64,000 nt of DNA, from positions 124,001-188,000 of the forward strand of contig NZ_QJOW01000002.1 of assembly GCF_009184545.1 (NCBI RefSeq), read 5' to 3'. A program made the position numbers and the translations under genes. This document shows, piece by piece, positions 1 through 54,364 of the stretch; position 1 is the stretch's first letter; each line of letters opens with the position of its first letter. The notes under the pieces were generated by a model. That model ran no database searches. It was not told where the DNA came from and worked only from the letters and a program-made list of their open reading frames with translations. The stretch comes from Halosegnis rubeus (lineage in GTDB: Archaea; Halobacteriota; Halobacteria; Halobacteriales; Haloarculaceae).

Positions 1-70
1 CTGTATCCACGCCCTTCTCGGACGCTTGGCTGTTCTCCTGATTGCCAGAGTCGTTGCTGTTGCGTTGCAT
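1..70 (-). CDS. N-terminus of an unknown protein, cut by the left edge
   Basis: An open frame on the minus strand starts at the ATG at 68-70 and runs off the left edge. The visible residues begin MQRNSNDSGNQENSQ and are polar and Asn/Gln/Ser-rich. A GAGGTGA Shine-Dalgarno match sits about 5 bases before the ATG (minus-strand reading of about 74-82), which is unusual here because most genes in the window look leaderless; it decides the start. The gene reads away from the integrase and would lie inside the integrated element. Too little protein is visible to name a family. Confidence 0.5.
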   Translation of the reverse strand, partial: MQRNSNDSGNQENSQASEKGVDT

Positions 71-434
71 TTTCTGTCACCTCACAAGCCAGAGTCGTCG
101 CTCAAGAGCCGTCCTGAACAGTCTCACGACTGCCAGACCCACTGCTCAAACCACCGTCTACACGGACACCCTCAGCAGGAGAAGTGGCTACTCAGCGAGC
201 GATACGTTTCTGACTTCCTTACATTACTATACGGGAGATTATCACTTAAAGGTGGCGGCGAGTTTTTTCGCCATTTTATGGACATAGAGGCCCCATTAGC
301 CTGCCTTTCTAGACGAACGTGGGTACCATATCACTTTTAAATCCTACTGTGTTATCTCTGCTGTCTGTCATTCTAAGAGGAGTGGTCTACCACTCCTTTC
401 ACTCCTCCATATGTAACCTATGACAATCGGGCGG
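71..434. other. Gene-free stretch inside the integrated element
   Basis: No convincing gene is seen. Base composition is visibly more AT-rich than the chromosome to the right. Two small inverted repeats are present: GGCGA/TCGCC at 257-272 around a run of T, and a 9-bp perfect repeat AGGAGTGGT/ACCACTCCT at 378-397 just past the stop codon of the integrase gene. The second could be a terminator stem or an operator. Confidence 0.5.
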
Positions 435-1433
435 TCACACCGAGTCGAGGTACTCTCTCCGTTGCTCCATCTTCTCCTCCTCGGTCATCTTGTTGTAGTG
501 CCTGTCGAGAATGTCGGGCGAGACATCTGCCCTGTCAGAGACGACCTGCTTCGGCACGTCGTTCTTCAGGAGATGAGTTAGGCTCCCCTTCCGCAAGCAG
601 TGGGGACTCCGTGATTGCTCGCACTTGCTGGCGTAGGAGTAGGGGTACTGTTCGGCACAACAGCAGGACTCCCCGTGGTAGCAGGGTCGGGTGATGTGGT
701 ACACGAGGGCACGGATGTTGCTCTGGCTCACACGCCCTTGCTTAGTAGTAATGAGCGGCTCTCGTCCGTTGTCGTCAGTTACGTCGGGACGAGTGTGGGT
801 TATCCAATCGCTCAGGACTTCACAGGTACGTTCTGGCAAGGCGATGGTTCGCTCTGCCCTCTTGCCATTCTTGAGAGACGTTCCTTCGTCGGGACGATGC
901 CGTATTGCGAGTGCTTGCTCCTCCGAGCGGAAGTCTTCGAGATCGAGCGAGTGTAGGGTACCCATCCGTATCGAGGTCGCCCAGAACATCTCGAAGAGGA
1001 CGTGCTTTCGAGAGGCGTACTCGAACCGTTCGAGATACTCCCGAATCTTCCCTGCCCGCTCTCCGTCCAGCATCTCGTCCTTCACGTCTTCGTTGGCATC
1101 GAGGGTCGGAAGCAGAATCTCCTCGTGGGTGCCTGACTCGACAGCGTCGATGCTCTCACAGAATCGCACGAAGGCTCGGAGCGTCGAGAGTTGGGTCCGA
1201 AGCGACACAGGGTTGAGGTCGCCGTCGTCCTTCCGCCAGAGTCGGTAATCGTACAGCCTGCGACCGGTGAGGCCGTTGAGGTTGGTGAGGTTCTCCTGTC
1301 CACACCAGCGCACGAAGTGCTTGAGACGGTATCTGTGAGCCTGTACGGTTCTCTCAGAAGCGTCGTCTTCCCGTTGTGCGAGGTAGAGGTCTACCGCTTT
1401 CTGTGGTGCGATGGGTTCGAGGTTTTGGGTCAT
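435..1433 (-). CDS. Tyrosine recombinase / phage-type integrase
   Basis: A 332-residue site-specific recombinase expected to integrate or excise the element at its left. Residues about 10-95 look like an N-terminal core-binding (SAM-like) domain. The catalytic domain shows Arg156 (TSIRMGTLHSL), the His278-x-x-Arg281 pair (SPHCLRKGS) and the nucleophile Tyr313 in RHYNK. The second catalytic His/Trp position is not clear: the local sequence is VVSDRADVS. An unusual Cys-rich insert (Cys251, 257, 258, 259, 271) before the HxxR motif may bind zinc. The gene reads leftwards and its 5' end is about 80 bases from a tRNA 3'-end copy, the normal layout for an integrase at an attachment site. The family is clear; the element type (provirus, plasmid or ICE) cannot be told. 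Confidence 0.9.
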   Translation of the reverse strand: MTQNLEPIAPQKAVDLYLAQREDDASERTVQAHRYRLKHFVRWCGQENLTNLNGLTGRRLYDYRLWRKDDGDLNPVSLRTQLSTLRAFVRFCESIDAVESGTHEEILLPTLDANEDVKDEMLDGERAGKIREYLERFEYASRKHVLFEMFWATSIRMGTLHSLDLEDFRSEEQALAIRHRPDEGTSLKNGKRAERTIALPERTCEVLSDWITHTRPDVTDDNGREPLITTKQGRVSQSNIRALVYHITRPCYHGESCCCAEQYPYSYASKCEQSRSPHCLRKGSLTHLLKNDVPKQVVSDRADVSPDILDRHYNKMTEEEKMEQRREYLDSV

Positions 1434-25747: not shown

Positions 25748-28700
25748 TTACTCTCCGACCGCCTGCTCGACGATCTCGATTTCCTCGTCGGTCAGTCCGT
25801 AGAGGTCATACACCAGTTCGTCGATGAGGTCGTCGGTGCGCTCGATTTGCTCGTCCAGCTCCGCCGCGCGCTCCGTCGCCTGCTCGTAGCGCTCGATGCC
25901 GTCGCGCACGTCCTCGATAGCCGGGAGCGTCAGGTCTTCGAGTCGGTCGAGCAGCGAGATGGTCTTGGTCGTGCCGTCGCGATACCCCGCCTTCTCTTCT
26001 TCGACGGCGTAGGGGACGAACGCTTCTAGGAGCGCGGCGAGGTCGTCGTCCACGTCGTGAAACTCCATCGCCGGCACAGGGTCGAGGGTGGCATAGTCGT
26101 GCGTGTTCGTCTCGTACTCGTCGCGCTCGCTCTCGATTGGCTTCACGTACGGGACCAGCGACACCGTCACCCGGTTCCCGGTGCGTTCGACGGTCGCCTC
26201 GGTCGCCCGAACCGTCTCGTACTGCTCCACGTCGCCCATCCCCTTCGTCAACACACTGTCGGCGAGTCCCGACGGCGGCATCGGACTCAGGTCGGCGAGA
26301 GTGGGGCCATCGTTGTAGCTGCCGAGGTAGTCGGGGAGGTGGAGATTGAGTGAGACGTATGCATCTTGATATTTCGAAATTTTTCGGGCAGAGTATGATA
26401 AAACGCGGTATGTGGTCTCATTCGATACAACAGAATTGCTGCCATCCGGAGTAACTCTATCAATTATTTCTTGGAACTTCCCAGAAATAGTCTGATTATG
26501 TACTTGTTCCAATTCTTGCTCGGTGATTCTCCCCGTCCCAAATTCGACCTCAGGTAGTGGTAGTTCGCTCACATGGCCCGGAACCACACTCAGTTCATCG
26601 GATAGGGTCTTGTGGTAGTACCAAGCTGTCAGATTTGAATTAACTACTGCGAGTGCAAAGTATGGGTCGTCATATTCGCTTGATTCGGGTGTTTCATTTG
26701 GTATTCCCGAACGGTCAATATGCGATACTTCTCTGATATTCACACAGGGAATCAGCGTTGAGAAGCAGTAGTAACCGCTCTCGTCAACAACTGCCATAAT
26801 ACCTTCACCACTTATCTTCCTAAAGACCAGCTTAGGATTCTCAAACAGCTCTGGAAACATCGGATTGTAGAAATCCTCTGGCGCGTAAATCACATACTCT
26901 GACGGGGGTAAAAGTCGATATCTCTCTGCAACGTCTTGCCCTCGTATCATCGGCTTTGCTCGTGGGTCGTCCGTCTCCTTGACAACATACTTATTCGTTT
27001 TCTCAGCAGTTCCCGTTCGGAGCCCCCAGTTCACGTAATAAACATCGTCAAAGCGAATTGATTTCTTGCTGATTCTATCGAGAATTGAGATATCCCCCTG
27101 TTCTACACGGAGCCGAATCGTGTTCTCAGTCCCCGTTGTGAGCAAATTTATATCGGCACGATTCACCTCTGGGAACGTGGTGTGTTCCTTCTCTCGGATT
27201 GATATTTTTGAGTTCGCTGTTCTCTGCTTGGTGAATACTGGAATAACATTAGAGACCGAAGCATCTTTGAACACACTCGTATCTCTCAAATCAAGGATGG
27301 ATTGGATATCCGATGTCTGATATATCTTGTCTCGAAGCTTCTCGCCGTAGGGTGTGTTGAGAAATTTATCAGGAACAATCTGTGAAGTGAATCCTTCGTG
27401 ATGCAGTAAATCTAGAGATATATCCAAAAACAAGATATATAGGTCAAATTTCTTATACGCTGATTCGTACGCTGTTCGATAGTATTCAACGACCTCATCT
27501 GGCAAACGATCTCCGTAAATACGTACATACGGCGGATTCCCGACAACAGCATCGTAGCCACTTCGTTCGGCCATCCCACCGTCTCTATCGTAAAACACCT
27601 CGGGGAACTCCAGTTTCCAGTGGAAGAAGTCGTGTTCCTCGGCGAGCGACTGGCCGGTCTGATACCAGTCCTGTTGTTCGACTTCGGCCCACTCGTCGTC
27701 GGCTTCGAGCGACCGGGCCATGCGCTCGTACGCGCCGGAGGGAACGTCGACGCCGAAATCCTCGGCGGTGGCGACGTTCGCCATGCCGACGAGCCGCTGG
27801 CGGAGGTCGTCCTGCTCGATTTCGCGGTATTTGCGCTCCATCTCGCGGGCGTCCTCGATATCCTCGTTCTCGATGGCGAGGAACTCCTGATAAATGTCCA
27901 TCAGTCGCTCGATGGTCCCGGCGCGGGTGGCTCCGAACTCCGCGAGCGACGACTGCGTGTCGGCGTCGTCGCTGGCGTCGGATTCCAGCCCCTCGATGGT
28001 CTCGATATCCGAGCCGACGAGTGAGTTGCCCGACTTGAGATGGTGGTCTAAGAAGGCGAGCGGCTGGTCCGTCGCGAGCGTCTCCAGCCACATCGACAGC
28101 TTCGCGAGCTCGACGGCCATCCCGTTGAGGTCGACGCCGTAGATGCACTCCTTCGAGATTTCACGCCGCACCGCCTGCTCGTCGATTCCACCGGCGGAGG
28201 CGAGTTCACGCGACTCCTCCATCACGGCCTCGGCCAGATACTCCGTCGCCTTCGTGAGGAAGTGTCCCGACCCCATCGCCGGGTCGAGGACGGTCAAATC
28301 GAGGACGCGGCGGTGAAACCGCGCGTAGTACTGCGGGTCGCCGGATTCGAGTCCGTCGGCGTTGAGGTCGGCGCGAATCTCGTCCAGCAGCGGGTCGATT
28401 GTCTCCTCGACGATGTAGGTGACGACGTAGTCGGGCGTGTAGTACGCGCCGGTGGCCTTCCGCTCGCCGTCGTCGTTCACCACGTAGAGTTCACCCGGGT
28501 CGACCGTCTCCACGGCGTCGGCGACGGTGACCTCGTCCGCCGGCTTCCACGTCTGCCCGCCGTCGTCGGCCACCGCGGCGAGGGGTTCACCGGCGATACG
28601 GAACTCGTGTTCGAGCAGCCCCTCGTAGATGCTGCCGAGATGCCGGGTGTCGAGGTCGGCGTAGTCGGCGAACACGACCTCGTCGCTCGTCTCCGAGTCC

Positions 28701-29887
28701 GTCGTGGAGATGAGATACACCACCTCGGCGAGCCACCGGTCGTACACCGAATGCTCGTCGAGGAACGCGTGTTTCATCGGGTCGAACAGCCCGCCGTTGT
28801 ACGCTGGAATCCCGAGTGCGTCCTCGCCGCTGTCCACGAGGTCGAACAGTCGCGAAAGCCGCGACCACATCGAGTCCGAGTAGGTGCTGAAGCCGGACGC
28901 GAACGTCTCACCAGAATCGACCGTCTCCTTGACTGTCTCCCGAAGGTGGCCGAACGAGAAGTTCTCTTCGTACTCGGCGCGCTCCTCGCCTTCTGGGTGT
29001 ATCAGGTCGCGCGACTCGGCGTACGAGACGAACATCAGCCGGTACAGTAAGACGAGCGACTGCTCTTTCAGTTCCGCGAGCGCCTCCTCGTCGCCGGGGT
29101 CGATGTCGAGGTCGTTCGACTCCACGAACCCCTCACCGAGCACGCGCAGTGCGGTGAAGACGTTGTCTTGGAGGTCCTCGCCGAGTTCCTGTGCGGCCGT
29201 CTCGCTTTCCGCCCACACGCGGTCGAGAAACGTCGTCTCACCGACCGCACGGAACGCTTCCGCCCGGAAGAAGACGAAAAACCGCTTGAACGCCTCCAGG
29301 TTTCCACGCTCCAGCAGTTCGGGCAGGTCGACCTCGTAGTAGGTCCGCGCCTCGTACTCCTTGGTTCCGTACAGCCGCCACTTCTTCCCGTCCGTGAGGA
29401 CTCCCCACCCGACCTCGTCGGGCGTCTGTTCGAGATAATGCTTGATTTGGTGGGAGGCGTTGCGATACTGCCGGTCGGTTCCGAACTCGGCCTCGAAGTC
29501 GTGGCCCCACTGCTTTGCCTCTAACAGGGCGAGCGACCGGGCGAAGAAGGTCTCGCTGTCGCCGTTCTCGGCTGCCAGTAGTTCGTCGTCCGACCCGAAC
29601 AGTGTTCGGTCGACGTACCCGCCACCGCTTGGGAGTGTCGCCTCCGACGCATGCGCAAAGCCCAGTGTCTCCAACACCGGCTCAATCCACCGGCTGATGT
29701 GTTGGTCTTCCTTCCGGCCCGCAAACTGGTCACGCTCACGCTCGTACAGGTCCTGTAACTCCTCCATCGCCTCGCGGGCTGTGTCGTCACAGTCCCACTC
29801 GTCCAGCCCGTAGATTCGCTCGTCGAGATAGTAGTTCGAGAAGAGATTGGCGTTGTAGTAGTTCCCGGAAATCGCCGTCTGGGTCAT
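25748..29887 (-). CDS. Type IIG restriction-modification enzyme (fused nuclease, N6-adenine methyltransferase and recognition domain)
   Basis: 1379 residues. A PD-(D/E)xK-like nuclease region lies near the N-terminus (YVDRTLFG, then LLEAKQWG near residue 125). The gamma-class methyltransferase core has motif I LDPAMGSGHFL (about 535), CIYGVDLNGMAVELAKLSMW and the catalytic NPPYVRIYG (about 785). The segment encoded by about 26360-27590 should hold the recognition domain and is clearly AT-richer than the flanks. The C-terminus is helical. The start ATG (29885-29887) gives MTQTAISGNYYNANLFSNYY; any longer frame is antisense to moxR. One polypeptide would both methylate and cut. No separate specificity gene is present; a BREX PglX-like role is the alternative, but no other BREX gene is seen. 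Confidence 0.88.
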   Translation of the reverse strand: MTQTAISGNYYNANLFSNYYLDERIYGLDEWDCDDTAREAMEELQDLYERERDQFAGRKEDQHISRWIEPVLETLGFAHASEATLPSGGGYVDRTLFGSDDELLAAENGDSETFFARSLALLEAKQWGHDFEAEFGTDRQYRNASHQIKHYLEQTPDEVGWGVLTDGKKWRLYGTKEYEARTYYEVDLPELLERGNLEAFKRFFVFFRAEAFRAVGETTFLDRVWAESETAAQELGEDLQDNVFTALRVLGEGFVESNDLDIDPGDEEALAELKEQSLVLLYRLMFVSYAESRDLIHPEGEERAEYEENFSFGHLRETVKETVDSGETFASGFSTYSDSMWSRLSRLFDLVDSGEDALGIPAYNGGLFDPMKHAFLDEHSVYDRWLAEVVYLISTTDSETSDEVVFADYADLDTRHLGSIYEGLLEHEFRIAGEPLAAVADDGGQTWKPADEVTVADAVETVDPGELYVVNDDGERKATGAYYTPDYVVTYIVEETIDPLLDEIRADLNADGLESGDPQYYARFHRRVLDLTVLDPAMGSGHFLTKATEYLAEAVMEESRELASAGGIDEQAVRREISKECIYGVDLNGMAVELAKLSMWLETLATDQPLAFLDHHLKSGNSLVGSDIETIEGLESDASDDADTQSSLAEFGATRAGTIERLMDIYQEFLAIENEDIEDAREMERKYREIEQDDLRQRLVGMANVATAEDFGVDVPSGAYERMARSLEADDEWAEVEQQDWYQTGQSLAEEHDFFHWKLEFPEVFYDRDGGMAERSGYDAVVGNPPYVRIYGDRLPDEVVEYYRTAYESAYKKFDLYILFLDISLDLLHHEGFTSQIVPDKFLNTPYGEKLRDKIYQTSDIQSILDLRDTSVFKDASVSNVIPVFTKQRTANSKISIREKEHTTFPEVNRADINLLTTGTENTIRLRVEQGDISILDRISKKSIRFDDVYYVNWGLRTGTAEKTNKYVVKETDDPRAKPMIRGQDVAERYRLLPPSEYVIYAPEDFYNPMFPELFENPKLVFRKISGEGIMAVVDESGYYCFSTLIPCVNIREVSHIDRSGIPNETPESSEYDDPYFALAVVNSNLTAWYYHKTLSDELSVVPGHVSELPLPEVEFGTGRITEQELEQVHNQTISGKFQEIIDRVTPDGSNSVVSNETTYRVLSYSARKISKYQDAYVSLNLHLPDYLGSYNDGPTLADLSPMPPSGLADSVLTKGMGDVEQYETVRATEATVERTGNRVTVSLVPYVKPIESERDEYETNTHDYATLDPVPAMEFHDVDDDLAALLEAFVPYAVEEEKAGYRDGTTKTISLLDRLEDLTLPAIEDVRDGIERYEQATERAAELDEQIERTDDLIDELVYDLYGLTDEEIEIVEQAVGE

Positions 29888-29912
29888 TGTCCTATCCCGG
29901 TCGCCCGCTGAC

Positions 29913-29919
29913 ATAAAAT
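29913..29919 (-). promoter_or_regulatory. TATA box of the restriction-modification gene
   Basis: Minus-strand ATTTTAT lies about 26 bases before the ATG at 29887, in the 111-base divergent gap shared with moxR. Confidence 0.55.
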
Positions 29920-29998
29920 CCCCCTCCCCGGGACCAAACTTACGGTACAGCGGCTCCACCGTTCGGCTAATGCCATCCCTCCGCATGGCCGAGCCACG

Positions 29999-30931
29999 AT
30001 GAGCCAGCACACAACCGCGACGGCTGGCGAGACGGCTCGCCGCGTCATCGACAACATCGGAGAGGTCATCGTCGGAAACGAGAACAGTATCGAACATCTC
30101 GTCGTCGCGCTGCTCGGTCGCGGCCACGTCCTGCTCGAAGACGTCCCGGGCGTCGGGAAAACGATGCTCGCGCGCGCTGTCGCCACCTCCTTCGAGTGTG
30201 AGTTCAAGCGCGTCCAGTTCACGCCGGACCTGCTCCCGGCGGACATCACCGGCGTCAACGTCTTCGACCAGGCCGATCAGACGTTCGAGTTCCGGCCCGG
30301 GCCGGTGTTCGCGAACGTCGTCCTCGGCGACGAGATCAATCGCGCGCCGCCGAAGACGCAGGCCGCGCTGCTCGAAGCGATGGAGGAGCAACAGGTAACG
30401 GCCGACGGGACGACCCGGACGCTGCCGGAGCCGTTCTTCGTCGTCGCGACCCAAAACAGCGTGGAGCGGGACCGCACCTACGAGCTTCCGGCCGCCGAAC
30501 TCGACCGGTTTGCGGTGAAGCTCTCGCTCGGCTACCCCGACCCCGACGACGAGACGGAGATTCTCGGCCGCGTGGTCGGCGAACACCCAATCGAGACCCT
30601 GGAGCCGGTCGCGACGACCGAAGACCTCGTCGCCGCCCAAACAACGACCGCCGAGGTGACGGTAAGCGAGGAGGTTCGCGACTACGTCACTCGGCTGGCG
30701 GGTTACACGCGCGAGAACGCGCAACTCGGCGTCTCGCCGCGGGGGTCGGTCGCGCTGTTGCAGGCCGCACAGGGTCGCGCCGTCCTGAACGACCGCGACT
30801 ACGTCCTCCCCGACGACATCCAACAGGAGACGAGACCGGTGTTCACCCACCGGATTCGCGTGGCCCGCGGCGAGGGCGACCCCGGAGACGTGGTGGCGTC
30901 GGCACTCGAGGCGGTGCCCGTCGAGCGATGA
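29999..30931 (+). CDS. moxR: MoxR-family AAA+ ATPase
   Basis: 310 residues. Walker A is LLEDVPGVGKTMLARAVA (about residue 45), Walker B VVLGDEINRAPPKTQAALL, with the family's EEQQVTADG, sensor 1 FVVATQN and the C-terminal lid region SPRGSVALLQAAQ. MoxR ATPases act as chaperones for maturation of protein complexes. The ATG of the DUF58 gene overlaps its stop by 4 bases (30928-30931), and the transglutaminase gene follows likewise, a common three-gene operon. Confidence 0.93.
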   Translation: MSQHTTATAGETARRVIDNIGEVIVGNENSIEHLVVALLGRGHVLLEDVPGVGKTMLARAVATSFECEFKRVQFTPDLLPADITGVNVFDQADQTFEFRPGPVFANVVLGDEINRAPPKTQAALLEAMEEQQVTADGTTRTLPEPFFVVATQNSVERDRTYELPAAELDRFAVKLSLGYPDPDDETEILGRVVGEHPIETLEPVATTEDLVAAQTTTAEVTVSEEVRDYVTRLAGYTRENAQLGVSPRGSVALLQAAQGRAVLNDRDYVLPDDIQQETRPVFTHRIRVARGEGDPGDVVASALEAVPVER

Positions 30932-43787: not shown

Positions 43788-45437
43788 ATGAGTGACTCGA
43801 GCGAGTCGACACCCCCCGGCAGGCCGGCCCTGCCGCTCGATTCGGCCGGTGGCGACCACAGCGACGGGCCGATTCCCGACGAACGAACCCGGAACCTCCT
43901 CGTACCGATGCGCACGGAACTCGGGACGGAGACCGACAACGCGGTCGAAATCGCCGAGCGCTACTGGCTCGTCCGTCCGTTCGCCTTCGCGGTTGTCCTT
44001 CGGGACGCCCGCACCGACGAGTACAGCTACCACGTCGTCGAGCCGGACCTCGACGAGCACGAACACTACGTCTATCGGGAGCTTGAGCGCGAACTCCGCG
44101 AGCATCTCGTTCACCGCGTTGCGCCCGGCGAGGACGAACACGAACGCGAGACGATGCTCGAACGACAGGCTCGCCGCGTCATCGACGAACTGCCCGGGCT
44201 GGACGTGCCCGAGTCGTCGTTCCAGCAGATCTGCTACTACCTCAAGCGGAACCTCGTCCACTTCGGGAAGGTCGACCCGCTGATGTCCGACCCTCGATTA
44301 GAGGAGGTTTCGTGTAACGCTCCCGAGAGTCCCGTCTTCGTCTACCACCGCGACTACGAGGACCTCGCGACGAACATCGAGTACGGAGCGGGCGAACTCC
44401 GCTCGTTCATCAAGACGCTCGCCCAGCGGTCTGGGAAGGATATCTCGACGGCGAAACCAATGCAGGGGACCGCCCTCCCGGACGGCTCGCGCATCCAGCT
44501 CACGCTGGACGAGGTCGCCCCGCGCGGCGAGAACTTCACCATCCGGAAGTTCCGCGAGGTGCCGTTCACGCCGGTCGATTTGGTACACCTCGACACGTTC
44601 ACCGTCGACCAGCTCGCGTATCTGTGGACCTGCATCGACGCCGGCCTTTCGGGCATCGTCGCCGGCGGAACCGCCTCGGGGAAGACCACCGCACTCAACG
44701 CACTCTCGATGTTTCTCCCGCCGAAATCAAAGGTCGTCTCCATCGAAGACACCCGCGAACTCCAGATTCCACAGGAAAACTGGGTCGCCTCGCTCACCCG
44801 CGAGCCGATGACCGGCGACGCCGACGAGACGGGTATCGACATGTTCGACCTGCTGCGGGGCGCACTCCGGCAGCGGCCGGAGTACATCCTCGTCGGCGAG
44901 GTGCGCGGTGAGGAAGCCCGCGACATGTTCGAGGCGATGTCCACCGGCCACACGACCTACTCGACGTTCCACGCCGACCGCGTCGAGGCCGTCCTCAACC
45001 GCTTGCAAGGTCCGCGGATGGGTGTCGAGAAGGAACTCATCTCCGAGTTGGGCTTTCTCTGTTTTCAGGCGCAGGTCGGCTCCGAGAGCGAGCGGCGCAA
45101 CACCGAGATTGCGGAGGTGCTCGACATCGAGAGCGGCCGGCTCAAGACGCGTACTGTCTTCGAGTGGAGCGAACACGACGACACCATCAGACAGGTGAAC
45201 CGGTCGGCACACATGGCGACCCTCCGGCAGGAACAGCCGGCTATCGACGGCCGGACCGACCGTCGGCGCGAACTGCTCGCGTACTTGGTCGACGAGGATA
45301 TCAGCGGCTACGAGGCGGTCTCGGCCGCGGTGCGGGCCTTCGAGCGCTCGCCCGACCGCGTCATCGAGCAGGTACGCGCCGGCACGCTCGACGCCGAGAC
45401 GCTCCACCACATCGAGGCGGGTGACGGTGGCGAGTAG
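43788..45437 (+). CDS. pilB: Type IV pilus / type II secretion ATPase, PilB family
   Basis: 549 residues. The N-terminal part (EIAERYWLVRPFAFAVVL, DPLMSDPRLEEVSCNAP) is the usual archaeal lead domain. The motor has Walker A VAGGTASGKTTALNAL (about residue 292), the Asp box IEDTRELQIP, Walker B YILVGEVRGEEARDMF and the His box STGHTTYSTFHAD. It would power assembly of a surface filament from the cytosolic face. The 3' end overlaps the PilC gene by 17 bases. Whether it extends a pilus or secretes another protein is not decidable. Confidence 0.92.
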   Translation: MSDSSESTPPGRPALPLDSAGGDHSDGPIPDERTRNLLVPMRTELGTETDNAVEIAERYWLVRPFAFAVVLRDARTDEYSYHVVEPDLDEHEHYVYRELERELREHLVHRVAPGEDEHERETMLERQARRVIDELPGLDVPESSFQQICYYLKRNLVHFGKVDPLMSDPRLEEVSCNAPESPVFVYHRDYEDLATNIEYGAGELRSFIKTLAQRSGKDISTAKPMQGTALPDGSRIQLTLDEVAPRGENFTIRKFREVPFTPVDLVHLDTFTVDQLAYLWTCIDAGLSGIVAGGTASGKTTALNALSMFLPPKSKVVSIEDTRELQIPQENWVASLTREPMTGDADETGIDMFDLLRGALRQRPEYILVGEVRGEEARDMFEAMSTGHTTYSTFHADRVEAVLNRLQGPRMGVEKELISELGFLCFQAQVGSESERRNTEIAEVLDIESGRLKTRTVFEWSEHDDTIRQVNRSAHMATLRQEQPAIDGRTDRRRELLAYLVDEDISGYEAVSAAVRAFERSPDRVIEQVRAGTLDAETLHHIEAGDGGE

Positions 45438-47556
45438 CACCGACGACGCGACCTTCGAGGTTGCAGACGACGAAGACCGTCGGACCGAACTCCTCAACCG
45501 GGTCGCCGACGCCATCGTCGGGGTTCGCGAACGAGTCGCGTCCGACGCCGACCGGAGCCGGCTCGACCGGTTCGCCTACCGGCAGTTCGCCGGGAAGTTC
45601 CGCGACCGACACGACAGATTCGAGTCGTATCGCCGGGTCGTGAATCAGGCGCGCTACGAGGAGACGTACGACCGATACCTCGCCCGCACGACGCTGTGGA
45701 CGCTGCTCACCTTCGCCGTCGGGACGGTCGTCGGACTGCTGTTCGCACTCTTGTTTCGACAACTCGGCGTGTTCTCGGCACTCGGGCTTGCCGTTCCGCT
45801 CGGACCGCTCTCGCCGGCCGTCGACGTGGTGAAGACACCGCTCGCGATGGCCACTGTCACGCTATCAGTCGCCCTGCTGTTTGCGGTGCCGGTCGGCGCG
45901 ACCCTCTACTACGCGCCCAGATTCGCAGCCTATCAGCGCGAGCGCGCCATCGACTATCTGCTCCCGCAGGCGGTCACCTACATGTTCGCGCTCTCGCAGG
46001 GCGACCTCCCGTTTCCCGCCATCGTGCGCCGACTCGCCGAGACGGAAGACACCTACGGCGAGGTGGCCGTCGCCTTCCAGGCGGTGACGAACGACATGGA
46101 CTTCTTCGGCTCCGACCTGCGGTCGGCGCTCCGGAGTGCGCGCGAATCGACGCCCTCCACCGAACTCGCGGAACTGCTCGACGACATGATCGGTATCATC
46201 GACACGGGCGGCGACGTGACGCCGTTCCTCCGGAGCAAGGCCGAGGAGTACCAGGAGCGGCGGCTCCGCGCGAACGACCGCATGGTCGATACCGTCGGCA
46301 TGTACGCGCAACTGTACATGATTGCGGGCGTCGCCTTCCCGCTCTTCTTGCTCATCACGCTCACCATCATGGTCGCTATCTCGGGGTCGGGGATGGCGCG
46401 GCTCCAGTTGGTCGTCTACGTGCTCGTCCCGACCGTCGCCGTCGGGTTCATCGTCCTCATCGACACGGTTTCGCCGGACGACCTCGGCACCTCCCCGACG
46501 CTCCCGGTGGACGACGACCGCGTCTCCGTCGGCGAACTCGCCGACCGCCTCGACGGCGAGACGACCGACCGCGCACCCAGTCGGACCAGCGGCCACACCG
46601 ACGCTCTCTCGGCGGCCGAGGCGAGCGGTATCGAGGGGTTGCGTGCCGCGCTGCGTCGACAGTCCACGGTTCGGACACTCCGTGCGCCGATCGACCTCGT
46701 GCGCCGGCGACCGGTCGTCTCGCTCGCCATCTCGGTTCCGATTGCACTCGTATACGTCGGCGTGCTCGCGCTCGCGGGGATTTCGGTTCCGACGCCGACC
46801 GGCTTCCTCGCCGCACCGATTGCGACGACGCTCCTCTCGGTCGTCGTGCCGCTGTTCGGCGTACTCGTCCCGCTCGCCTACTTCCACGAACGGCAGTACC
46901 GCCACCGCCAGCGCGTCAACCGCGAACTCCCGGACGTGGTGCGAAAGCTCGCCAGCACCTCCGAGACGGGGATGACGCTTGCGCAAAACATCGGGCTGGT
47001 CGGTGAGACCTCGGAGGGGTATCTCGCGGGCGAGTTCCAGCGCGTCGACCACGCGTTGAACTACAACGTCGTCCTCGGCGACGCGCTCCGCCGGATGTCG
47101 AACCGCGTTCGCAACGAACGGCTCACCCGGGTCGTCCACCTGCTCGCGGAGGCGAACGCCGCCAGCGGGCGCGTACGGGCCGTCCTCACCGTCGTTGCCG
47201 ACGACGTGCGCAACGCCTACCGGCTGGAGACGCGCCGGCGCGACGAGACGCGCAACCAACTCGTCATCGGCGTGATGGGCTTTCTGCTGTATCTCGTCGT
47301 CGCGGTCGGCGTCATCGAGTTTTACCTCCCGCCGATGGTCGAGGCCGCCTCGCAGGCGAGCGAACTCGGCGCGACCACCTTCGGCACGAACATCGACATC
47401 GACGCCTTCCGGGTCGTCCTGTTCCACGGCGCGCTGTTGCAGGCGCTCGCGACCGGACTCGTCTCCGGACAAATCGCCTACGACAGCGCGCTCGCCGGAC
47501 TGAAGCTCGCACTGCCACAGCTCCTGCTCGCGACCGTCGTCTTCTGTTTCGTCTGA
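45421..47556 (+). CDS. pilC: PilC/TadC-family membrane assembly protein
   Basis: 711 residues from GTG. Two T2SSF-type modules: the first around YLLPQAVTYMFALSQGDLPF and the second around NRELPDVVRKLASTSETGMT, each followed by membrane helices (LYMIAGVAFPLFLLITLTIM; NQLVIGVMGFLLYLVVAVGV). Further helices lie near residues 75-100, 110-130 and 435-480. It forms the membrane platform for PilB. It is closely coupled: overlap with pilB and a 2-base gap to the next gene. Confidence 0.9.
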   Translation: MTVASSTDDATFEVADDEDRRTELLNRVADAIVGVRERVASDADRSRLDRFAYRQFAGKFRDRHDRFESYRRVVNQARYEETYDRYLARTTLWTLLTFAVGTVVGLLFALLFRQLGVFSALGLAVPLGPLSPAVDVVKTPLAMATVTLSVALLFAVPVGATLYYAPRFAAYQRERAIDYLLPQAVTYMFALSQGDLPFPAIVRRLAETEDTYGEVAVAFQAVTNDMDFFGSDLRSALRSARESTPSTELAELLDDMIGIIDTGGDVTPFLRSKAEEYQERRLRANDRMVDTVGMYAQLYMIAGVAFPLFLLITLTIMVAISGSGMARLQLVVYVLVPTVAVGFIVLIDTVSPDDLGTSPTLPVDDDRVSVGELADRLDGETTDRAPSRTSGHTDALSAAEASGIEGLRAALRRQSTVRTLRAPIDLVRRRPVVSLAISVPIALVYVGVLALAGISVPTPTGFLAAPIATTLLSVVVPLFGVLVPLAYFHERQYRHRQRVNRELPDVVRKLASTSETGMTLAQNIGLVGETSEGYLAGEFQRVDHALNYNVVLGDALRRMSNRVRNERLTRVVHLLAEANAASGRVRAVLTVVADDVRNAYRLETRRRDETRNQLVIGVMGFLLYLVVAVGVIEFYLPPMVEAASQASELGATTFGTNIDIDAFRVVLFHGALLQALATGLVSGQIAYDSALAGLKLALPQLLLATVVFCFV

Positions 47557-47558
47557 CC

Positions 47559-48857
47559 ATGACCGACACACCACAACACGACAGTAGCACCGACAGCACG
47601 CCGGCATCGACGTTCACCGGCGAGACACGCGCACAGGCAACCCAAATCGGGCTGATACTCGCTATCGGGAGCCTGTTCAGCCTCCTGTTGGTCGCACAGG
47701 TGTCGCTGGCTCCGCAGGTGCAGTCGGAGACGGAGTTGCGCCACTCCAGCACCGTCCTCGCCGACATGCAGGAGATACAGGCCGACCGCGGCGTCGTCGC
47801 CGACGGCGCGGACGGACAGGCCAGCGTCCTCCGGATGGGCGACAGCTATCCGACCTACCTGATTCTCGCCCAGCCACCCGGGCCATACGGGACGCTCAAC
47901 ACCGAGGACGCCGGTAGGCTCACTGTCACGGGCGCGACGGCCACCAACCCCAGCGCTGCCGACCACTTCGATGGCAGCCCCATCGCGCGGGAGACGACCG
48001 CGCTCGAATACACGCCCGGCTACCATCAGTATGACGCGCCGACGACGCGGCTCGCACAGGGTGTCCTCACCGAGGAGTACAGCGACCACGCCGAACCGGT
48101 CGCCGGCGGCGAGGTGGTCGACGGCCGGAACCTGAATCTCGTCTGGACGACCGGCGACATCGCGGCCAGCCAGACGAAGCCGCTCACTCTCCGCACCGAG
48201 CGACTCTCGACGTCCGACCGCGCGGTCCGGGTCGAGCAGTCGACGGAGACACCGATTCGGGTGCGGTTCGAGACGACGCTCTCCGAGCGACGGTGGCGAG
48301 AACTGCTCGCCGCCGAAATCGACGACGACACGACCCCTGCCGCGCCCGACTCCGACGGCGACGGGCGCTACGTCACCGGCGTCGAGAAGAGCGACGGCAC
48401 GCTCACCGTCTCGCTGGAGACCGGCGTCAGCTACCGGCTCGACATGGCGAAGGTCGGCTGGCGAACCGGCCACCAGCCCGGATTTCCCGACGACAGCGAG
48501 CCGGAGTCGGCGTATCTCGCGACCGGCGACCGGACGCCCGTCGTCACCGAGGGAACGACCACGAGGCTCACCGCACGCGTCGCCGACGACTACGGGAACC
48601 CACAGCCGGACGTGCCGGTGACGGCCCGCGTCGAGACCGACGGCCGGCTCGCCGGCGGAGCGACCAGCCGCGACCGACTCTCGGCCGGCGACGGGACGGT
48701 CACGTTCGAGTACACCGCTCCCGAGGTGACCCGACCGACGAGCGAAACGAGCGAACGGACCGAACGCGTCCGGGTCACGCTTCCAGACGCCAGCGGCGGC
48801 GACGGCGACCCGCGGGTCGTCGTCTTCGAGATTCGCGTCCAGAACACCCACGACTGA
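47559..48857 (+). CDS. Pilin-like surface protein with Ig-like C-terminal domain
   Basis: 432 residues. After 23 polar residues comes RAQATQIGLILAIGSLFSLL, a type-IV-pilin-like hydrophobic helix, then a strand-rich extracellular part with many Thr/Asp/Gly. The last 100 residues (TRLTARVADDYGNPQPDVPV and onwards) look like an invasin/Ig-like domain. It follows pilC by 2 bases, so it is a likely minor pilin or component of the filament. The class III signal cut site is not clear. Confidence 0.75.
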   Translation: MTDTPQHDSSTDSTPASTFTGETRAQATQIGLILAIGSLFSLLLVAQVSLAPQVQSETELRHSSTVLADMQEIQADRGVVADGADGQASVLRMGDSYPTYLILAQPPGPYGTLNTEDAGRLTVTGATATNPSAADHFDGSPIARETTALEYTPGYHQYDAPTTRLAQGVLTEEYSDHAEPVAGGEVVDGRNLNLVWTTGDIAASQTKPLTLRTERLSTSDRAVRVEQSTETPIRVRFETTLSERRWRELLAAEIDDDTTPAAPDSDGDGRYVTGVEKSDGTLTVSLETGVSYRLDMAKVGWRTGHQPGFPDDSEPESAYLATGDRTPVVTEGTTTRLTARVADDYGNPQPDVPVTARVETDGRLAGGATSRDRLSAGDGTVTFEYTAPEVTRPTSETSERTERVRVTLPDASGGDGDPRVVVFEIRVQNTHD

Positions 48858-49152: not shown

Positions 49153-49239
49153 GCGTCCCCGACCTCGCGACAGCCCACCCGACGAGGAGTGAGTCCCGAT
49201 GCCCGTACCGCTTCCCGACCGACCACATCTAATCCCCCA

Positions 49240-52200
49240 ATGCTCACAACAGACGAGCAGGCGTCCGCGTCCACGACCGGCATGATCGTCGCCGTCGCGC
49301 TGATGGTGGTGATGAGCGGCGTCGTCTACGCCGGTCTCTCGACACGGATGGACGAACAGACCGACCCGGAGACGACAATCGAGCACGCCAGCGTCGATAT
49401 CGTCTCTCAGAATCAACTCCGCGTCGTTCCCGTCATCGGATCGGACCTCGATCTCGACGCCACGACGGTTCGGGTCACGTTCCCGAACTCCGACAAGCGC
49501 GGGTTCACCGTCACCGACGCCGGAGCGGCCGTCGAGCGAAGCGAGACAACGACCGAGACGACGACCCGGACGGTCACCAACGGGCTCGAACCCGAACCGG
49601 TGTACGAGACGGTCACACGACCCGTCTACGAGACCGTCCGAAAGCGCGTCCAGACCGGGACCGAACGCGTCGAACAGACCGTCCCGACCTACCGGTGGAA
49701 CCGCACCGTCACGACCGAACGACCGATACACCGCTGGAACCACACGGTGACCGAACAGGTGCCCCAGTACCGCTGGCACCACACGTGGACGGAACGTGTC
49801 CCGCGCTACCGGTGGGAGCGCACCGTCACCGACCGCGAGACGACCGTCGACTGGGAGTCGCCCGGTCCGGCGTGGTCGCGCGCCAGCGGCGTCGTTCACA
49901 CCGACTCGGTGTACAAAGGCCGGACGCGAGAGAAGGTCCGGACGGGAACCGAGACGGAGCGGCGACTCGTCGACATGGAGCGTGAACGCGTCCACGCCGG
50001 CTACGAGACCCACACGGAGTGTTCGCCGTCGCCGTGGGGGTTCGCCCGCGGGCGGACCTGCGAAACAGTTCGTGAACCGGTGTACGAGTACGAGCGCGTC
50101 CCGGTGTACGAGACCGTCCGCCAGCCGATCTACGAGTGGCAGTGGCGGGCCGACTACGACACCGAGGCGTTCTACCGATACGAACGCGTCGACCGGACGA
50201 CAGAACAGACGCTCTCGACGAGCGAGCCGACGGGCGACGGCTGGCGGAAAGCATCACCGCGCGCGTTCGACCACATGACGGTCGAGCGAACCGACAGCGA
50301 GGTCGCAACTGATCCGCCCGCACCGGGATGGACGCGAAAGAGCGCAGCCGTCGTTTCACGCGTCGACCGAACACGAACGGAGACGACGCTCGCGGCCGAG
50401 GCACCGGGCGACGATTGGACCCGGGTCAGCGACACGCCGGTCCGGACCGAGTCAGTCGAGCAGACCCAGACGAAACTCGCCCCGCGACAGCCGGGCGACG
50501 GGTGGTCGCTCGCCAGCGACGGGGCAATCGGCGAGACGACCGTCACGGTCCAGCAGCCGACGTACGGTATCGTCGAGCAGCGGATTCGAACCGGCACCAC
50601 GACGGAGCGTCTCATCAGCCACTACCGGATGGTGCCGAAGACGACGGTCGTCACGGAGACGGAGACGACGGCAACCTTCGACGACAGCGTCGAATCCGTC
50701 GAGCGCGGACTCACCGACTCCCCAGCAGTCGGGTCGCCAGAACAAGCGAGCGTCGCTGCATCCGGCCCTGACACGGGAGACGAAGAGGACGCTGAGGACG
50801 ACGAGACAGTTGCAGACGATGCCGGCGAGAGTGCCGACGACGGCCCACCCGACCACGTCCTCGACCGACTGCCGTTCTTGGAGGTCGACGGCAGCGACGA
50901 GCCGCCTGCGCGTGCCAGCAGCATCGTCGAGGGGCTCAGCGGCACGACGACGCGCGACTCGCCCGCGGTATGGCAAAACGGTGAGGCACTCACCGTCCAT
51001 CTCGCGGAAGACCACATTACCGAAGGCGATATCGTCCGCGTCCGCGTCGTCGACACCAACGCGGAGTCGGTCGTCCTCGACAAGCAGATCCGCGCGACGA
51101 ACCTCCCCGCTGTCTCGCTCGATAGCACAGCTCCGACCGATGCGTCGCCGCCGGCTACCGATGCGCCACCGACTACCGACTCCACGACAGTGTCCGATAG
51201 CTCGGCGACGCAGTCCTCTCAGTCGCCGCAGTCACCGCAGTCCGCTGTCGGCGACGAGTTGTCCGGCGGTTCAACGGACACTGACCGGCCACCCGCCGTC
51301 TCCATCTCCGGGCCGAACACGGTCGCACCCGGTAGCGAGGCGACGTTCGAGGCAAACGCCGTCGACGACGAAGGTATCGTCGACTACTCGTGGGACGGCG
51401 CGTACAGCTACGACCAGTCGACCGCGACCCACACCTTCGACGACGCGCCCGGCGAGACGCGGCGCATCGCGCTCACCGTCACCGACACTGCCGGCCAGAC
51501 GGCGACCGCGACGAAGGTGGTTGAGATTAGCGACGAAAACCGCGACCCACAAATCGAACTCCCGCCCGCCGTCACCGGCTGTGTCGGCGAGTCGGTGCGA
51601 CTGAATCCGACCATCGTCACCGAAGAGGGGGACACCGCTACCGGCGAGTGGGACAGACGGATGCCGATACATCTTGACTCACCGGGCGTTAGCTCCGCGA
51701 CCTACACCGCGACGGACAACCACGGTGCAGAGACGTACCGGTCTGTTCGGGTTACTACGATGTCGTGTAGAGAGACCCAAGCTAGTCCTGATATGAATAT
51801 AACTGAGAAGAATGAAGAGAATGAGGTACTCGTGCTGTCTGGATCCGGTGAAATGACGGCAAGCATCGGTGATAATGATGCCCACAGGCAACATTATCCT
51901 CGTAGTCTTGCGACGCAGGAACTCTCTGATTCCCGAAAGAACGAGATTTCGTATCTTGGCTCTGCCGCAGCAGCAGCGGTTGATAAAGTCAGAGATACCG
52001 TTGCTCCAGACAGTTACACAATAACGAGGGAAGTCAGTCGTAGTGAGGCTAGGTTCCTTGAATCGGAGGCGGAGCAATCGTCTGGTTCGTCCTTTGCAGG
52101 AGGTAGTCAAATCGCATTAAATAGACACAAATCGCTGAACAATCCTGAAATTGAGCAGGGAATTGACTCGGGGCCTCAAACCACGGTAACTGTCGTCATC

Positions 52201-52608
52201 AAAGTTGGTCCACACGGTGACATCAACGGGACTGCAATTGCTGCTCGCAACGGTGAGATTCAGGATTCGCAATCTGACGCGGACGGTGGTCAAACTGTCG
52301 GATCCACTGAGCCAACGGTGACTCCGTCAGATGGGACTACCAATGCAGTATCCCGCGATCAGGCAGACAATCGTGTCTATGATGCGGCGAGAGGACACGT
52401 TGAGGCGGTACAGAGTGAGCAAATTACGAACTCTGGAGCCGGGACTCAAATCTCTGAATCTACACCAGATACGGATTCCTCCACCGAACAGACAGAGGCC
52501 GCGAGAGACGACAAAGATGATCAGTCTGTACAGAATCGACTTGATGCGGTTCTGCTAGATACCGAAATGACGGAGCAAGATGAAATGACCTCCAGGGTTG
52601 CCGAATAG
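49240..52608 (+). CDS. Giant pilin-like repeat protein with PKD-type domain and AT-rich variable C-terminus
   Basis: 1122 residues. Residues 1-36 hold a pilin-like start (TTDEQASASTTGMIVAVALM then VVMSGVVYAGL). About 120-300 is rich in VYETV and YRW motifs, including four tandem 13-residue units at 151-201 ([YH]RWx[RH]T[VW]T). About 320-437 has four ~29-residue units with a PGDGW core. Then come an acidic stretch, a Pro/Ser/Thr linker, a PKD-like domain (about 684-770: VSISGPNTVAPGSEATF) and another Ig-like segment. From about residue 840 codon use becomes AT-rich. Start is the ATG at 49240; a GTG at 49189 is possible. Likely a long surface stalk assembled with PilB/PilC. Its tip function is unknown. 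Confidence 0.8.
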   Translation: MLTTDEQASASTTGMIVAVALMVVMSGVVYAGLSTRMDEQTDPETTIEHASVDIVSQNQLRVVPVIGSDLDLDATTVRVTFPNSDKRGFTVTDAGAAVERSETTTETTTRTVTNGLEPEPVYETVTRPVYETVRKRVQTGTERVEQTVPTYRWNRTVTTERPIHRWNHTVTEQVPQYRWHHTWTERVPRYRWERTVTDRETTVDWESPGPAWSRASGVVHTDSVYKGRTREKVRTGTETERRLVDMERERVHAGYETHTECSPSPWGFARGRTCETVREPVYEYERVPVYETVRQPIYEWQWRADYDTEAFYRYERVDRTTEQTLSTSEPTGDGWRKASPRAFDHMTVERTDSEVATDPPAPGWTRKSAAVVSRVDRTRTETTLAAEAPGDDWTRVSDTPVRTESVEQTQTKLAPRQPGDGWSLASDGAIGETTVTVQQPTYGIVEQRIRTGTTTERLISHYRMVPKTTVVTETETTATFDDSVESVERGLTDSPAVGSPEQASVAASGPDTGDEEDAEDDETVADDAGESADDGPPDHVLDRLPFLEVDGSDEPPARASSIVEGLSGTTTRDSPAVWQNGEALTVHLAEDHITEGDIVRVRVVDTNAESVVLDKQIRATNLPAVSLDSTAPTDASPPATDAPPTTDSTTVSDSSATQSSQSPQSPQSAVGDELSGGSTDTDRPPAVSISGPNTVAPGSEATFEANAVDDEGIVDYSWDGAYSYDQSTATHTFDDAPGETRRIALTVTDTAGQTATATKVVEISDENRDPQIELPPAVTGCVGESVRLNPTIVTEEGDTATGEWDRRMPIHLDSPGVSSATYTATDNHGAETYRSVRVTTMSCRETQASPDMNITEKNEENEVLVLSGSGEMTASIGDNDAHRQHYPRSLATQELSDSRKNEISYLGSAAAAAVDKVRDTVAPDSYTITREVSRSEARFLESEAEQSSGSSFAGGSQIALNRHKSLNNPEIEQGIDSGPQTTVTVVIKVGPHGDINGTAIAARNGEIQDSQSDADGGQTVGSTEPTVTPSDGTTNAVSRDQADNRVYDAARGHVEAVQSEQITNSGAGTQISESTPDTDSSTEQTEAARDDKDDQSVQNRLDAVLLDTEMTEQDEMTSRVAE
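49690..49842 (+). repeat. Four tandem 13-residue YRW repeats within the giant protein
   Basis: Units read YRWNRTVTTERPI, HRWNHTVTEQVPQ, YRWHHTWTERVPR and YRWERTVTDRETT. The 39-base units have drifted at DNA level, so the repeat is old and kept for protein structure. Confidence 0.8.
50197..50550 (+). repeat. About four tandem ~29-residue PGDGW repeats within the giant protein
   Basis: Units carry SEPTGDGWRKAS, DPPAPGWTRKSA, EAPGDDWTRVSD and RQPGDGWSLASD, each followed by a Thr/Glu-rich strand. A fifth, separate unit (ESPGPAWSRASG) lies near residue 206. Confidence 0.75.
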
Positions 52609-52686
52609 AGGGCAGATAATGACTTTGTTCTACTAGAAAATATCTGAAACATTTATGGAAAAACAAGTCAGAACGGGTGTGTCGAC

Positions 52687-53301
52687 ATGAACCGACGACG
52701 AGTGTTGCGATTAAGTGGTGCCACGCTCACTTCCACTCTTACCACCGGTTGTTTGGGTGAGTTTCGGACAAATCCAGGTGAGCGAACCAGCCCGACTGAG
52801 GCTGCTAACGTACAGAAAATTCCAGAGTACGAGGCTACTCACCACTCAATTGTTCCAGACGTGCGGGAATTGGAACGCCTCACTCACAAAGCCACCAATG
52901 CGGCAAGACGGGAGCACTCTCGAAGCCCACTCTCATACGACTCAGAGTTGGCCGATATTGCCCGACTCCATTCACGAGATATGGCGGTTAGGGATTTCTA
53001 TGCTCATGAGAATCCCGATGGTGAACTCCACATCAGCCGCCTGCCAAAGTATGGGTACCATTCACGAGTGGTATATGAGAATCTGCTCACAATCGAGAAT
53101 CCTGTAACCGATCTTTCTGTCGAAGAGTTAGCTCAGATGGCGGTTGATGGGTGGCTCGACTCCCCCGCTCACCGTGATGCCCTCCTCAGAGAACACAACA
53201 CGGAGGAGGGAATCGGCGTGTACGTCACGGCCGAGCCGCGCATCTACTGGACGGCAGAGCTCTCGAAGTACGACGTTGACCGGCAGACACCGACACAGTA
53301 A
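52687..53301 (+). CDS. CAP-domain lipoprotein
   Basis: 204 residues. The N-terminus NRRRVLRLSGATLTSTLTTG then Cys22 is a twin-arginine signal with a lipobox. The CAP/SCP domain follows: LTHKATNAARREHSRSPLSY, LADIARLHSRDMAVRDFYAH with the His, and GWLDSPAHRDALL. Such domains are secreted and may bind lipids or act on surface polymers. Most of the gene is AT-richer than its neighbours, but the last ~120 bases are normal, so its 5' part may have arrived by recombination with the adjacent 3' end of the giant protein gene. Confidence 0.87.
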   Translation: MNRRRVLRLSGATLTSTLTTGCLGEFRTNPGERTSPTEAANVQKIPEYEATHHSIVPDVRELERLTHKATNAARREHSRSPLSYDSELADIARLHSRDMAVRDFYAHENPDGELHISRLPKYGYHSRVVYENLLTIENPVTDLSVEELAQMAVDGWLDSPAHRDALLREHNTEEGIGVYVTAEPRIYWTAELSKYDVDRQTPTQ

Positions 53302-53311
53302 CCCCCCAACG

Positions 53312-54364
53312 ATGAACCGACGAACCATCCTCACAGCGTGTGGCACAGCCCTCGCCGGCGCACTCGCCGGCTGTAACAGCAGCGACGAGTCGACCGAGAC
53401 GCGAACAGCGACGACGGCCCAGACGGCCAGTCCGACGCCGGAGTCGACGGCGACGCCGACACCCGCGAATCCGGAGGTGACGGCCGCACTGGAGACGGCC
53501 CGGCCGGAAGCGGCGACAGCGTTCGAGGCGGTCCAGTCGTTACAGGTCGTCGACGACGGCGACCTCGCGATGGACGAAGACAGCGGGTTCCGCGGGTACG
53601 CAGCCCACGAACGAGCCGACGTGTACGATCCGCTCACGGTCGTACGGGATACGCTTGTCCCGGTGCGCGAGGAGGGAAGCAAGCGCCAGCAGGCGCACGT
53701 CGAACTCCTCTTGTCGGTCGGCGAGTACACGAACACGAAGTATCAGGAGTACACGGCAATCGCGGAGGGATTCTCGCGGCTGTACCGCGGCATCGACGCG
53801 CACATGTCGACTCAGGTCGGGGACGCCTACAAGTTCTACACGGGAGCACGGGAGGACTTGGCGAGCATGTCACAGGAGCGTGTCGCGGCGAGTCAACTCC
53901 TCCAGCAGTTCGCGACCGACGGTATCGAGGCCAACGTCGACGGGTTCTCGATTATGGACGAGCAGGCCGAACAGACGTACGTGTCGACGCTGGTGTATCG
54001 GTGGGAGCCGGCGGCGCGCGGACTGATACACCAACTCGACGGATTCGGCGCACTCGGGCAGGCCCGGACTGCGTTCGAAGCCGACGAGTACGAGCGGAGC
54101 GTCCGGCTGGCACGTATCGCCCGCGAGAAGTTCGACACCGCCGCGACGGCCGTCCCGACGGCCCTCGACCGCGACGTGTCGCTGTTCTCCTCGTGGCTCG
54201 AGACGGTGGCGTGTCGCGCCCCGGGGTTCGTCGAGTCGGCGGAAACGCTCCGGGCTGCGGGCGAGTCGGCGCTCGCGGGCGAGACCCACGCCGCGAGTGA
54301 GACCTACGAATCGTCGAAGACGCAGTTCGACCGGGCGTTCGACTGCGAGGGGGAGTCGGCGTGA
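53312..54364 (+). CDS. Tat-exported lipoprotein with helical body
   Basis: 350 residues. The signal NRRTILTACGTALAGALAGC has an RR pair and lipobox LAGC (Cys21), then a Thr/Ser/Pro linker. The body is mostly helical (VTAALETARPEAATAFEAVQ, KQRQ-rich helices and a TPR-like arrangement), ending with Cys residues near ETVACRAPGF and RAFDCEGE. No family recognised. It starts 10 bases after the CAP gene, so both lipoproteins are probably coexpressed and act at the cell surface beside the pilus-like structure. Confidence 0.75.
   Translation: MNRRTILTACGTALAGALAGCNSSDESTETRTATTAQTASPTPESTATPTPANPEVTAALETARPEAATAFEAVQSLQVVDDGDLAMDEDSGFRGYAAHERADVYDPLTVVRDTLVPVREEGSKRQQAHVELLLSVGEYTNTKYQEYTAIAEGFSRLYRGIDAHMSTQVGDAYKFYTGAREDLASMSQERVAASQLLQQFATDGIEANVDGFSIMDEQAEQTYVSTLVYRWEPAARGLIHQLDGFGALGQARTAFEADEYERSVRLARIAREKFDTAATAVPTALDRDVSLFSSWLETVACRAPGFVESAETLRAAGESALAGETHAASETYESSKTQFDRAFDCEGESA

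Follow-up and report, generated by a model that had tools for sequence, protein, structure and literature searches.

Whereas bacteria offer well-known examples of variable recognition loci, few have been described in archaea. Several described systems come closest to the locus analyzed here. The VARTIG modules of Thermococcales comprise a large surface protein (arCOG07710) with several Ig-like domains and a hypervariable C-terminal part, which apparently varies via recombination between strains or species, along with small stand-alone genes that match this tip and a shuffled, heterogeneous set of downstream genes; according to the authors, VARTIG has no counterpart beyond Thermococcales (Makarova et al. 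2021, PMC8416519). UpsA, a Sulfolobus pilin, is cited in the same paper as a type-IV-pilus component whose species-specific variable part sets cell-cell recognition. Replacement flexible genomic islands, with one archaeon included among the cases described, encode surface structures and recombine in conserved boundaries (Lopez-Perez et al. 2014, PMC4033161).

Here we describe an AT-rich, highly diverged segment in a pilus-linked locus of the haloarchaeon Halosegnis rubeus. The window under analysis is a stretch of 64,000 nucleotides (positions 124,001 to 188,000 of contig NZ_QJOW01000002.1), and all positions below are those of the window. The segment resembles VARTIG in the presence of a large surface protein with a hypervariable C-terminal part followed by downstream genes, and by this analogy it may work most like VARTIG. 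There are, nevertheless, differences. The tip has no recognizable Ig domain or other family match; one weak PKD match (E 0.0011, below the Pfam cut-off) lies in the constant part of the protein. The downstream genes, shuffled in VARTIG, are constant here, with the same CAP-domain gene and next gene in H. rubeus and in both relatives that carry the locus (in one of these, on two overlapping contigs), and pilus assembly genes belong to the locus, unlike in VARTIG. Given that neither stand-alone tip genes (each genome contains a single tip match) nor a shuffled downstream set were found, we do not file the segment as a VARTIG member. With the replacement islands, the locus shares a surface function, as well as the occurrence of diverged versions in one position between conserved flanks, but those islands swap complete clusters, typically of 20–40 kb, whereas the segment is 1.4 kb long, ends within two genes and exists in homologous versions. 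UpsA, as cited, is a major pilin, whereas here the variability affects a lipoprotein together with the end of a giant pilin-like protein, with a putative role in recognition. Finally, the order of the PilB and PilC genes and the PilB3_N match are the same as in haloarchaeal type-IV-pilus-like loci, in contrast to the giant protein, which is rare.

Architecture of the locus and limits of the segment

The adjacent genes for a secretion ATPase and a T2SSF protein form a type-IV-pilus-like PilB/PilC pair and are followed by the gene for a surface protein and by a giant gene (49189–52608; Table 1). The latter encodes a protein of 1139 aa, with a hydrophobic, pilin-like stretch at its N-terminus and the variable tip at its C-terminus; the PKD match spans residues 705–777 (51301–51519). 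The CAP protein starts with RRR and has a lipobox Cys at residue 22, so that it is probably an exported lipoprotein. In the gap between the two genes, the TATA-like TTTATG element, which has a similar counterpart in the gap of G001, is a candidate promoter.

Table 1. Features of the pilus-linked locus of H. rubeus (G001, nearest relative; G004, metagenome-derived genome; G161, genome from a different family)
Feature	Position	Strand	Evidence and comparison
PilB-like secretion ATPase gene	43788..45437	+	Pfam T2SSE 2e-33, PilB3_N 3.5e-06
PilC-like membrane protein gene	45421..47556	+	Pfam T2SSF 7.9e-25
432-aa surface protein gene of same locus	47559..48857	+	weak Big_1, Pfam E 0.0011, below cut-off; syntenic homologue in G161
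Giant gene, constant part	49189..51769	+	pilin-like N-terminus, Tyr/Arg-rich repeats, weak PKD; 87% aa identity, dS 0.35 vs G001
AT-rich hyperdivergent segment: giant tip, gap, signal peptide, most of CAP	51742..53148	+	change points, GC3, DNA-identity loss vs both relatives, dS jump
Giant protein variable C-terminal tip, about 279 aa	51770..52608	+	no known domain; 35-47% aa identity among three alleles
Intergenic gap inside segment	52609..52686	+	TATA-like TTTATG at 52652-52657, string CTGAAA upstream shared with G001 gap
CAP-domain lipoprotein gene, 204 aa	52687..53301	+	Pfam CAP (PF00188) E 1.1e-16, domain residues 69-189
Conserved 3' anchor, last 50 CAP codons	53149..53301	+	90% aa identity, dS 0.53 vs G001; G004 fork
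350-aa lipoprotein-like gene after CAP, not hypervariable	53312..54364	+	90% aa identity, dS 0.32 vs G001

The first-pass annotation had proposed an AT-rich cassette at 51740–53180, across the 3' end of the giant gene and most of the CAP gene. A maximum-likelihood fit with two change points placed the breaks at 51742 and 53148 (log-likelihood gain of 61.8), with a GC content of 0.499 inside this interval and 0.661 outside. The predicted breaks in codon use, near residue 840 of the giant protein and some 120 bases before the CAP stop, were recovered as well: GC3 drops from ~0.8 to 0.40–0.55 at residue ~841–850 and returns to 0.7–0.9 about 120–150 bases ahead of the CAP stop. The anomalous composition is continuous over ~1.4 kb, covering the 3' quarter of the giant gene, the gap and three quarters of the CAP gene, as had been anticipated for a single segment. 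DNA identity to the nearest relative is lost from 51770, that is, 28 bases inside the composition change. Repeats and tRNAs were sought at the segment edges, and nothing meaningful was found.

In 448 kb of the contig, we detected only one more gene-internal, sharply bounded AT-rich stretch (>1 kb, GC ≤0.5), at ~26.4–27.6 kb of the window, where it overlaps the part of an Eco57I/MmeI-like restriction enzyme gene that encodes the TaqI_C-like specificity domain. GC-biased gene conversion comes to mind, purely as an idea, as a cause of AT-richness; in a Haloferax study, the direction of conversion did not depend crucially on GC content (PMC8223754).

Divergence among the three carriers

The giant gene, tip included, was identified in only three of the six genomes of the genus, namely, the genome that contains the window (G000), its nearest relative (G001) and a metagenome-derived genome (G004), and all three carry the AT-rich segment at the same place. 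The comparisons below thus involve three alleles, one from each of three species. About 310 kb of the compared stretch can be aligned between H. rubeus and G001, with a median identity per alignment window of ~0.92. Within 51770–52807, there is no alignment at the DNA level between these two genomes, yet ~1.04 kb is present in both. The amino acid identity of the giant protein drops from 0.87 in the constant part to 0.42 in the tip, and that of the CAP protein is 0.60 over the first 154 residues and 0.90 over the last 50; the core motifs HSRDM, HEN, YEN and SPxHR are kept in all three alleles. The synonymous sites behave likewise: between H. rubeus and G001, dS is 0.25–0.35 for the constant part of the giant gene and for its neighbors (pilC, the 432-aa gene and the gene after CAP), in contrast to 2.9–3.1 for the tip; over the first 154 codons of CAP, dS is saturated. 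This synonymous jump implies that selection on the amino acid sequence of an otherwise vertically inherited segment cannot be the only cause of the divergence.

The comparison of H. rubeus with its relatives accordingly shows a single locus where conserved flanks enclose diverged content, the divergence within the segment far exceeding that of the flanks; an identical block on different flanks was not seen among the three alleles. The first-pass annotation would have had to give way if the same cassette were found at normal divergence in all relatives, and this is not what was obtained.

The GC content of 0.50 amid a region of 0.66 could be taken as the trace of one recent import into this strain from a low-GC donor, such as another haloarchaeon, a plasmid or a virus. 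This account is contradicted by the AT-rich homologous blocks at the same place in both relatives: AT-richness common to all three alleles is not the mark of a single recent insertion. Furthermore, no donor or orphan copies were found in plasmids, phages or viral contigs, searches of 96 family genomes and 293 order genomes detected no true relative of the tip outside the genus, and the best-scoring CAP match outside the genus is 36% identical, with none above 47% among the matches listed. We consider a recent import highly improbable.

Far more weight is due to fast evolution in place, under which a single gain of the segment in the common ancestor was followed by accelerated vertical divergence, without any exchange, through relaxed codon constraint, AT-biased mutation or positive selection. 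The shared place and composition of the segment in the three carriers are compatible with this scenario, and so is the AT-rich part of the restriction gene, in which dS between H. rubeus and G004 is also elevated, at 1.52 vs 0.53–0.59; AT-rich genic blocks can thus have moderately raised dS, and part of the effect observed in the segment may come from this source. The contrast in the segment between H. rubeus and G001 is, however, much larger than that in the restriction gene, and fast evolution would require a roughly 8-fold higher synonymous rate between these two genomes, with edges within two genes. Moreover, other AT-rich windows in the comparison with G001 are mostly conserved at normal identity (0.87–0.94), so that AT-richness alone does not explain the divergence of the segment. 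Together with the affinity changes and the assembly fork described below, which it leaves unexplained, these observations make fast evolution in place rather unlikely in our assessment.

Shifting affinities along the segment and an assembly fork

In the constant part of the giant protein, amino acid sites at which H. rubeus agrees with G001 clearly outnumber those shared with G004 (80:14, 50:12 and 23:2). Inside the segment, this preference changes repeatedly. At 51742–51950, 10 sites are shared with G004 and 6 with G001, and at 51950–52240, G004 is favored by 31 to 11; at 52240–52608, the preference is for G001, by 32 to 12, and the start of the CAP protein is again closer to G004 (13 sites against 4). 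This alternation of the nearer relative is suggestive, short of proof, of a mosaic, with uncorrected p values of ~0.003 obtained from three alleles in diverged alignments.

At the 3' edge, the G004 assembly offers an additional clue. Its contig C1 stops inside the CAP gene, and contig C11 opens with the last 99 bases of C1, in an exact overlap whose start corresponds to position 53152; the composition boundary is 4 bases away. Exact 99-base contig overlap is a signature of an assembly-graph fork, and overlaps of this kind occur at several further G004 contig ends, as expected of such forks; IDBA_UD was the assembler used in a study (PMC5532433) from which G004 probably stems. The location of the fork suggests that, within the sampled population, alternative upstream versions join the conserved anchor. 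The second arm of the fork was not recovered from G004.

Copies, domains and distant relatives

The first-pass annotation had interpreted the segment as a switching cassette, comparable to those of polymorphic toxin or adhesin loci, and had suggested a search for orphan tip cassettes. Protein and DNA searches of the three carrier genomes yielded no further copies of the tip or the segment, and no orphan or silent copies; CAP paralogues that are more distant, 32–43% identical, do exist. What the three carriers encode is not a set of different payloads: their tips are homologous, and their CAP protein is the same. Programmed switching, in which silent tip copies would be copied or inverted into an expression site, as in pilin antigenic variation, would agree with the sharp edges and with the variable exposed end of a pilus-linked protein. 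The searches contradict it, however, neither a second copy in the three carriers nor meaningful edge repeats having been found, and we give very little credence to this mechanism.

A polymorphic toxin system, with the tip as the toxin payload and the CAP protein, or another gene product, as its immunity partner, the two being swapped as a pair, also has some appeal, inasmuch as a small co-varying gene follows that of a large secreted protein whose C-terminus is variable. However, the tips are homologous rather than unrelated payloads, no toxin domain was found in Pfam or NCBIfam, no orphan modules were found in the carriers and the presumed partner is an ordinary CAP lipoprotein with intact core motifs. 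This part of the earlier interpretation thus receives no support, and we regard a toxin system as very unlikely.

A profile search with the tip against PDB and Pfam gave nothing significant. A match of the tip to Cas_Csa5 (E 0.0077) sits in the polar C-terminal tail, below the family cut-off, and was rejected. Structure prediction for the tip and for the CAP protein from alignments of three rows yielded a pLDDT of 34 and useless models.

Strong matches to the giant protein in a class-wide sample of 391 genomes were limited to the three congeners and G161, which belongs to a different family and contains the one clear distant relative of the N-terminal part. In G161, a 1323-aa giant protein with PKD-like repeats, CAP, PilB, PilC and the 432-aa gene are grouped together, and the synteny of the PilB/PilC pair is kept. 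G086, from the same family as H. rubeus, has a CAP gene (35% identical) between two others. The gene before it encodes a 448-aa protein that begins with a PKD-like region, and the gene after it is related to the lipoprotein-like gene at 53312–54364 of the window (23%, 7e-10). This three-gene set is AT-rich (GC of about 0.41–0.54 vs 0.62 in the neighborhood); no matches of the pilus genes of the window were found nearby, and similarity to the tip is undetectable. The arrangements in G161 and G086 indicate that the neighborhood of CAP and a PKD-like protein is old and that AT-richness recurs there. Weak tip matches in G039 (histidine kinase), G006 (PKD tail) and at G161:C5:48299 (ATPase-like protein) proved on inspection to be due to chance or to PKD only, and those of the weak N-terminal matches that were inspected, in G165 and G076, lie inside or antisense to unrelated genes.

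Discussion

With moderate confidence, we interpret the segment as a hypervariable allelic block that belongs to a pilus-linked surface apparatus. Homologous recombination in the conserved flanks would re-assort the block, which would also be under diversifying selection for recognition. The giant protein would be anchored via its pilin-like N-terminus, with the variable tip exposed beyond the PKD-like domain, and the adjacent CAP lipoprotein, which may interact with the tip, varies together with it. The diverged versions of the block would predate the split of the host species, and ordinary homologous recombination would re-assort them among strains as well as species. The crossovers would fall in the conserved end of the PKD region (up to 51769), in the conserved 3' end of CAP (from about 53149) and also within the block. 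Selection for an altered exposed surface would then retain many versions in the population; by analogy, the selecting force may be virus attachment or the recognition of partners or self.

A variant of this scheme that we find doubtful holds that the tip and the CAP protein match each other, are inherited together as a haplotype and allow haloarchaeal cells to tell self from non-self or to recognize mating partners, the diversity being kept across species by balancing selection. If this reading were true, the AT-richness would be a lasting signature of divergence so large that the block can no longer recombine internally with its homologues.

Under the favored scheme of re-assortment through conserved flanks, the edges of the exchange map to nucleotide positions in the alignment, which opens the recombination model to a direct test with population reads. 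The parallel with the restriction gene suggests a search rule, namely, that sharp AT-rich blocks inside genes of GC-rich haloarchaea may mark exchanged specificity modules. The variation of the tip along with the adjacent CAP lipoprotein provides a lead on the role of CAP proteins in archaeal envelopes.

Further AT-rich and divergent segments

The Eco57I/MmeI-like restriction-modification gene of the window contains an internal, sharp-edged AT-rich block that overlaps the specificity domain, with GC3 of ~0.47 as against ~0.88. The allele type of this block is also present in the metagenome-derived congener G004 (79% amino acid identity), with dS between the two genomes reaching 1.52 within the block compared to 0.53–0.59 in its flanks; in the nearest congener, G001, the gene was matched as remnants only. 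Another AT-rich stretch (GC ~0.50–0.56), at the window start, showed no alignment with the compared G001 region and is perhaps an accessory island. H. rubeus and G001 also differ, between conserved flanks, in an interval elsewhere on the contig (1047 and 1195 bases, respectively), where the H. rubeus protein, judged by eye, looks like a VapC/PIN toxin.

Locations of the segments and related loci
Feature	Coordinates	Strand	Content
Restriction-modification gene	window 25748-30850	-	Eco57I/MmeI-like
AT-rich block	window 26400-27650		
AT-rich stretch	window 1-500, extending upstream; contig C7 ~120.7-125 kb		
Divergent interval	G000 contig C7 239841-240887		
G161 locus	L049 7419-18674		giant gene with PKD-like repeats; CAP; PilB; PilC; 432-aa gene
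G086 set	L164 7340-10270		protein of 448 aa, PKD-like at its start; CAP lipoprotein; relative of the window's 350-aa lipoprotein

Related loci in other genomes

The whole locus has a distant syntenic version in G161, from another family, where giant-CAP precede PilB, whereas in the window they follow it. In G086, of the same family, an AT-rich set of three genes, near which the window's pilus genes were not found, may be this module in stand-alone form.
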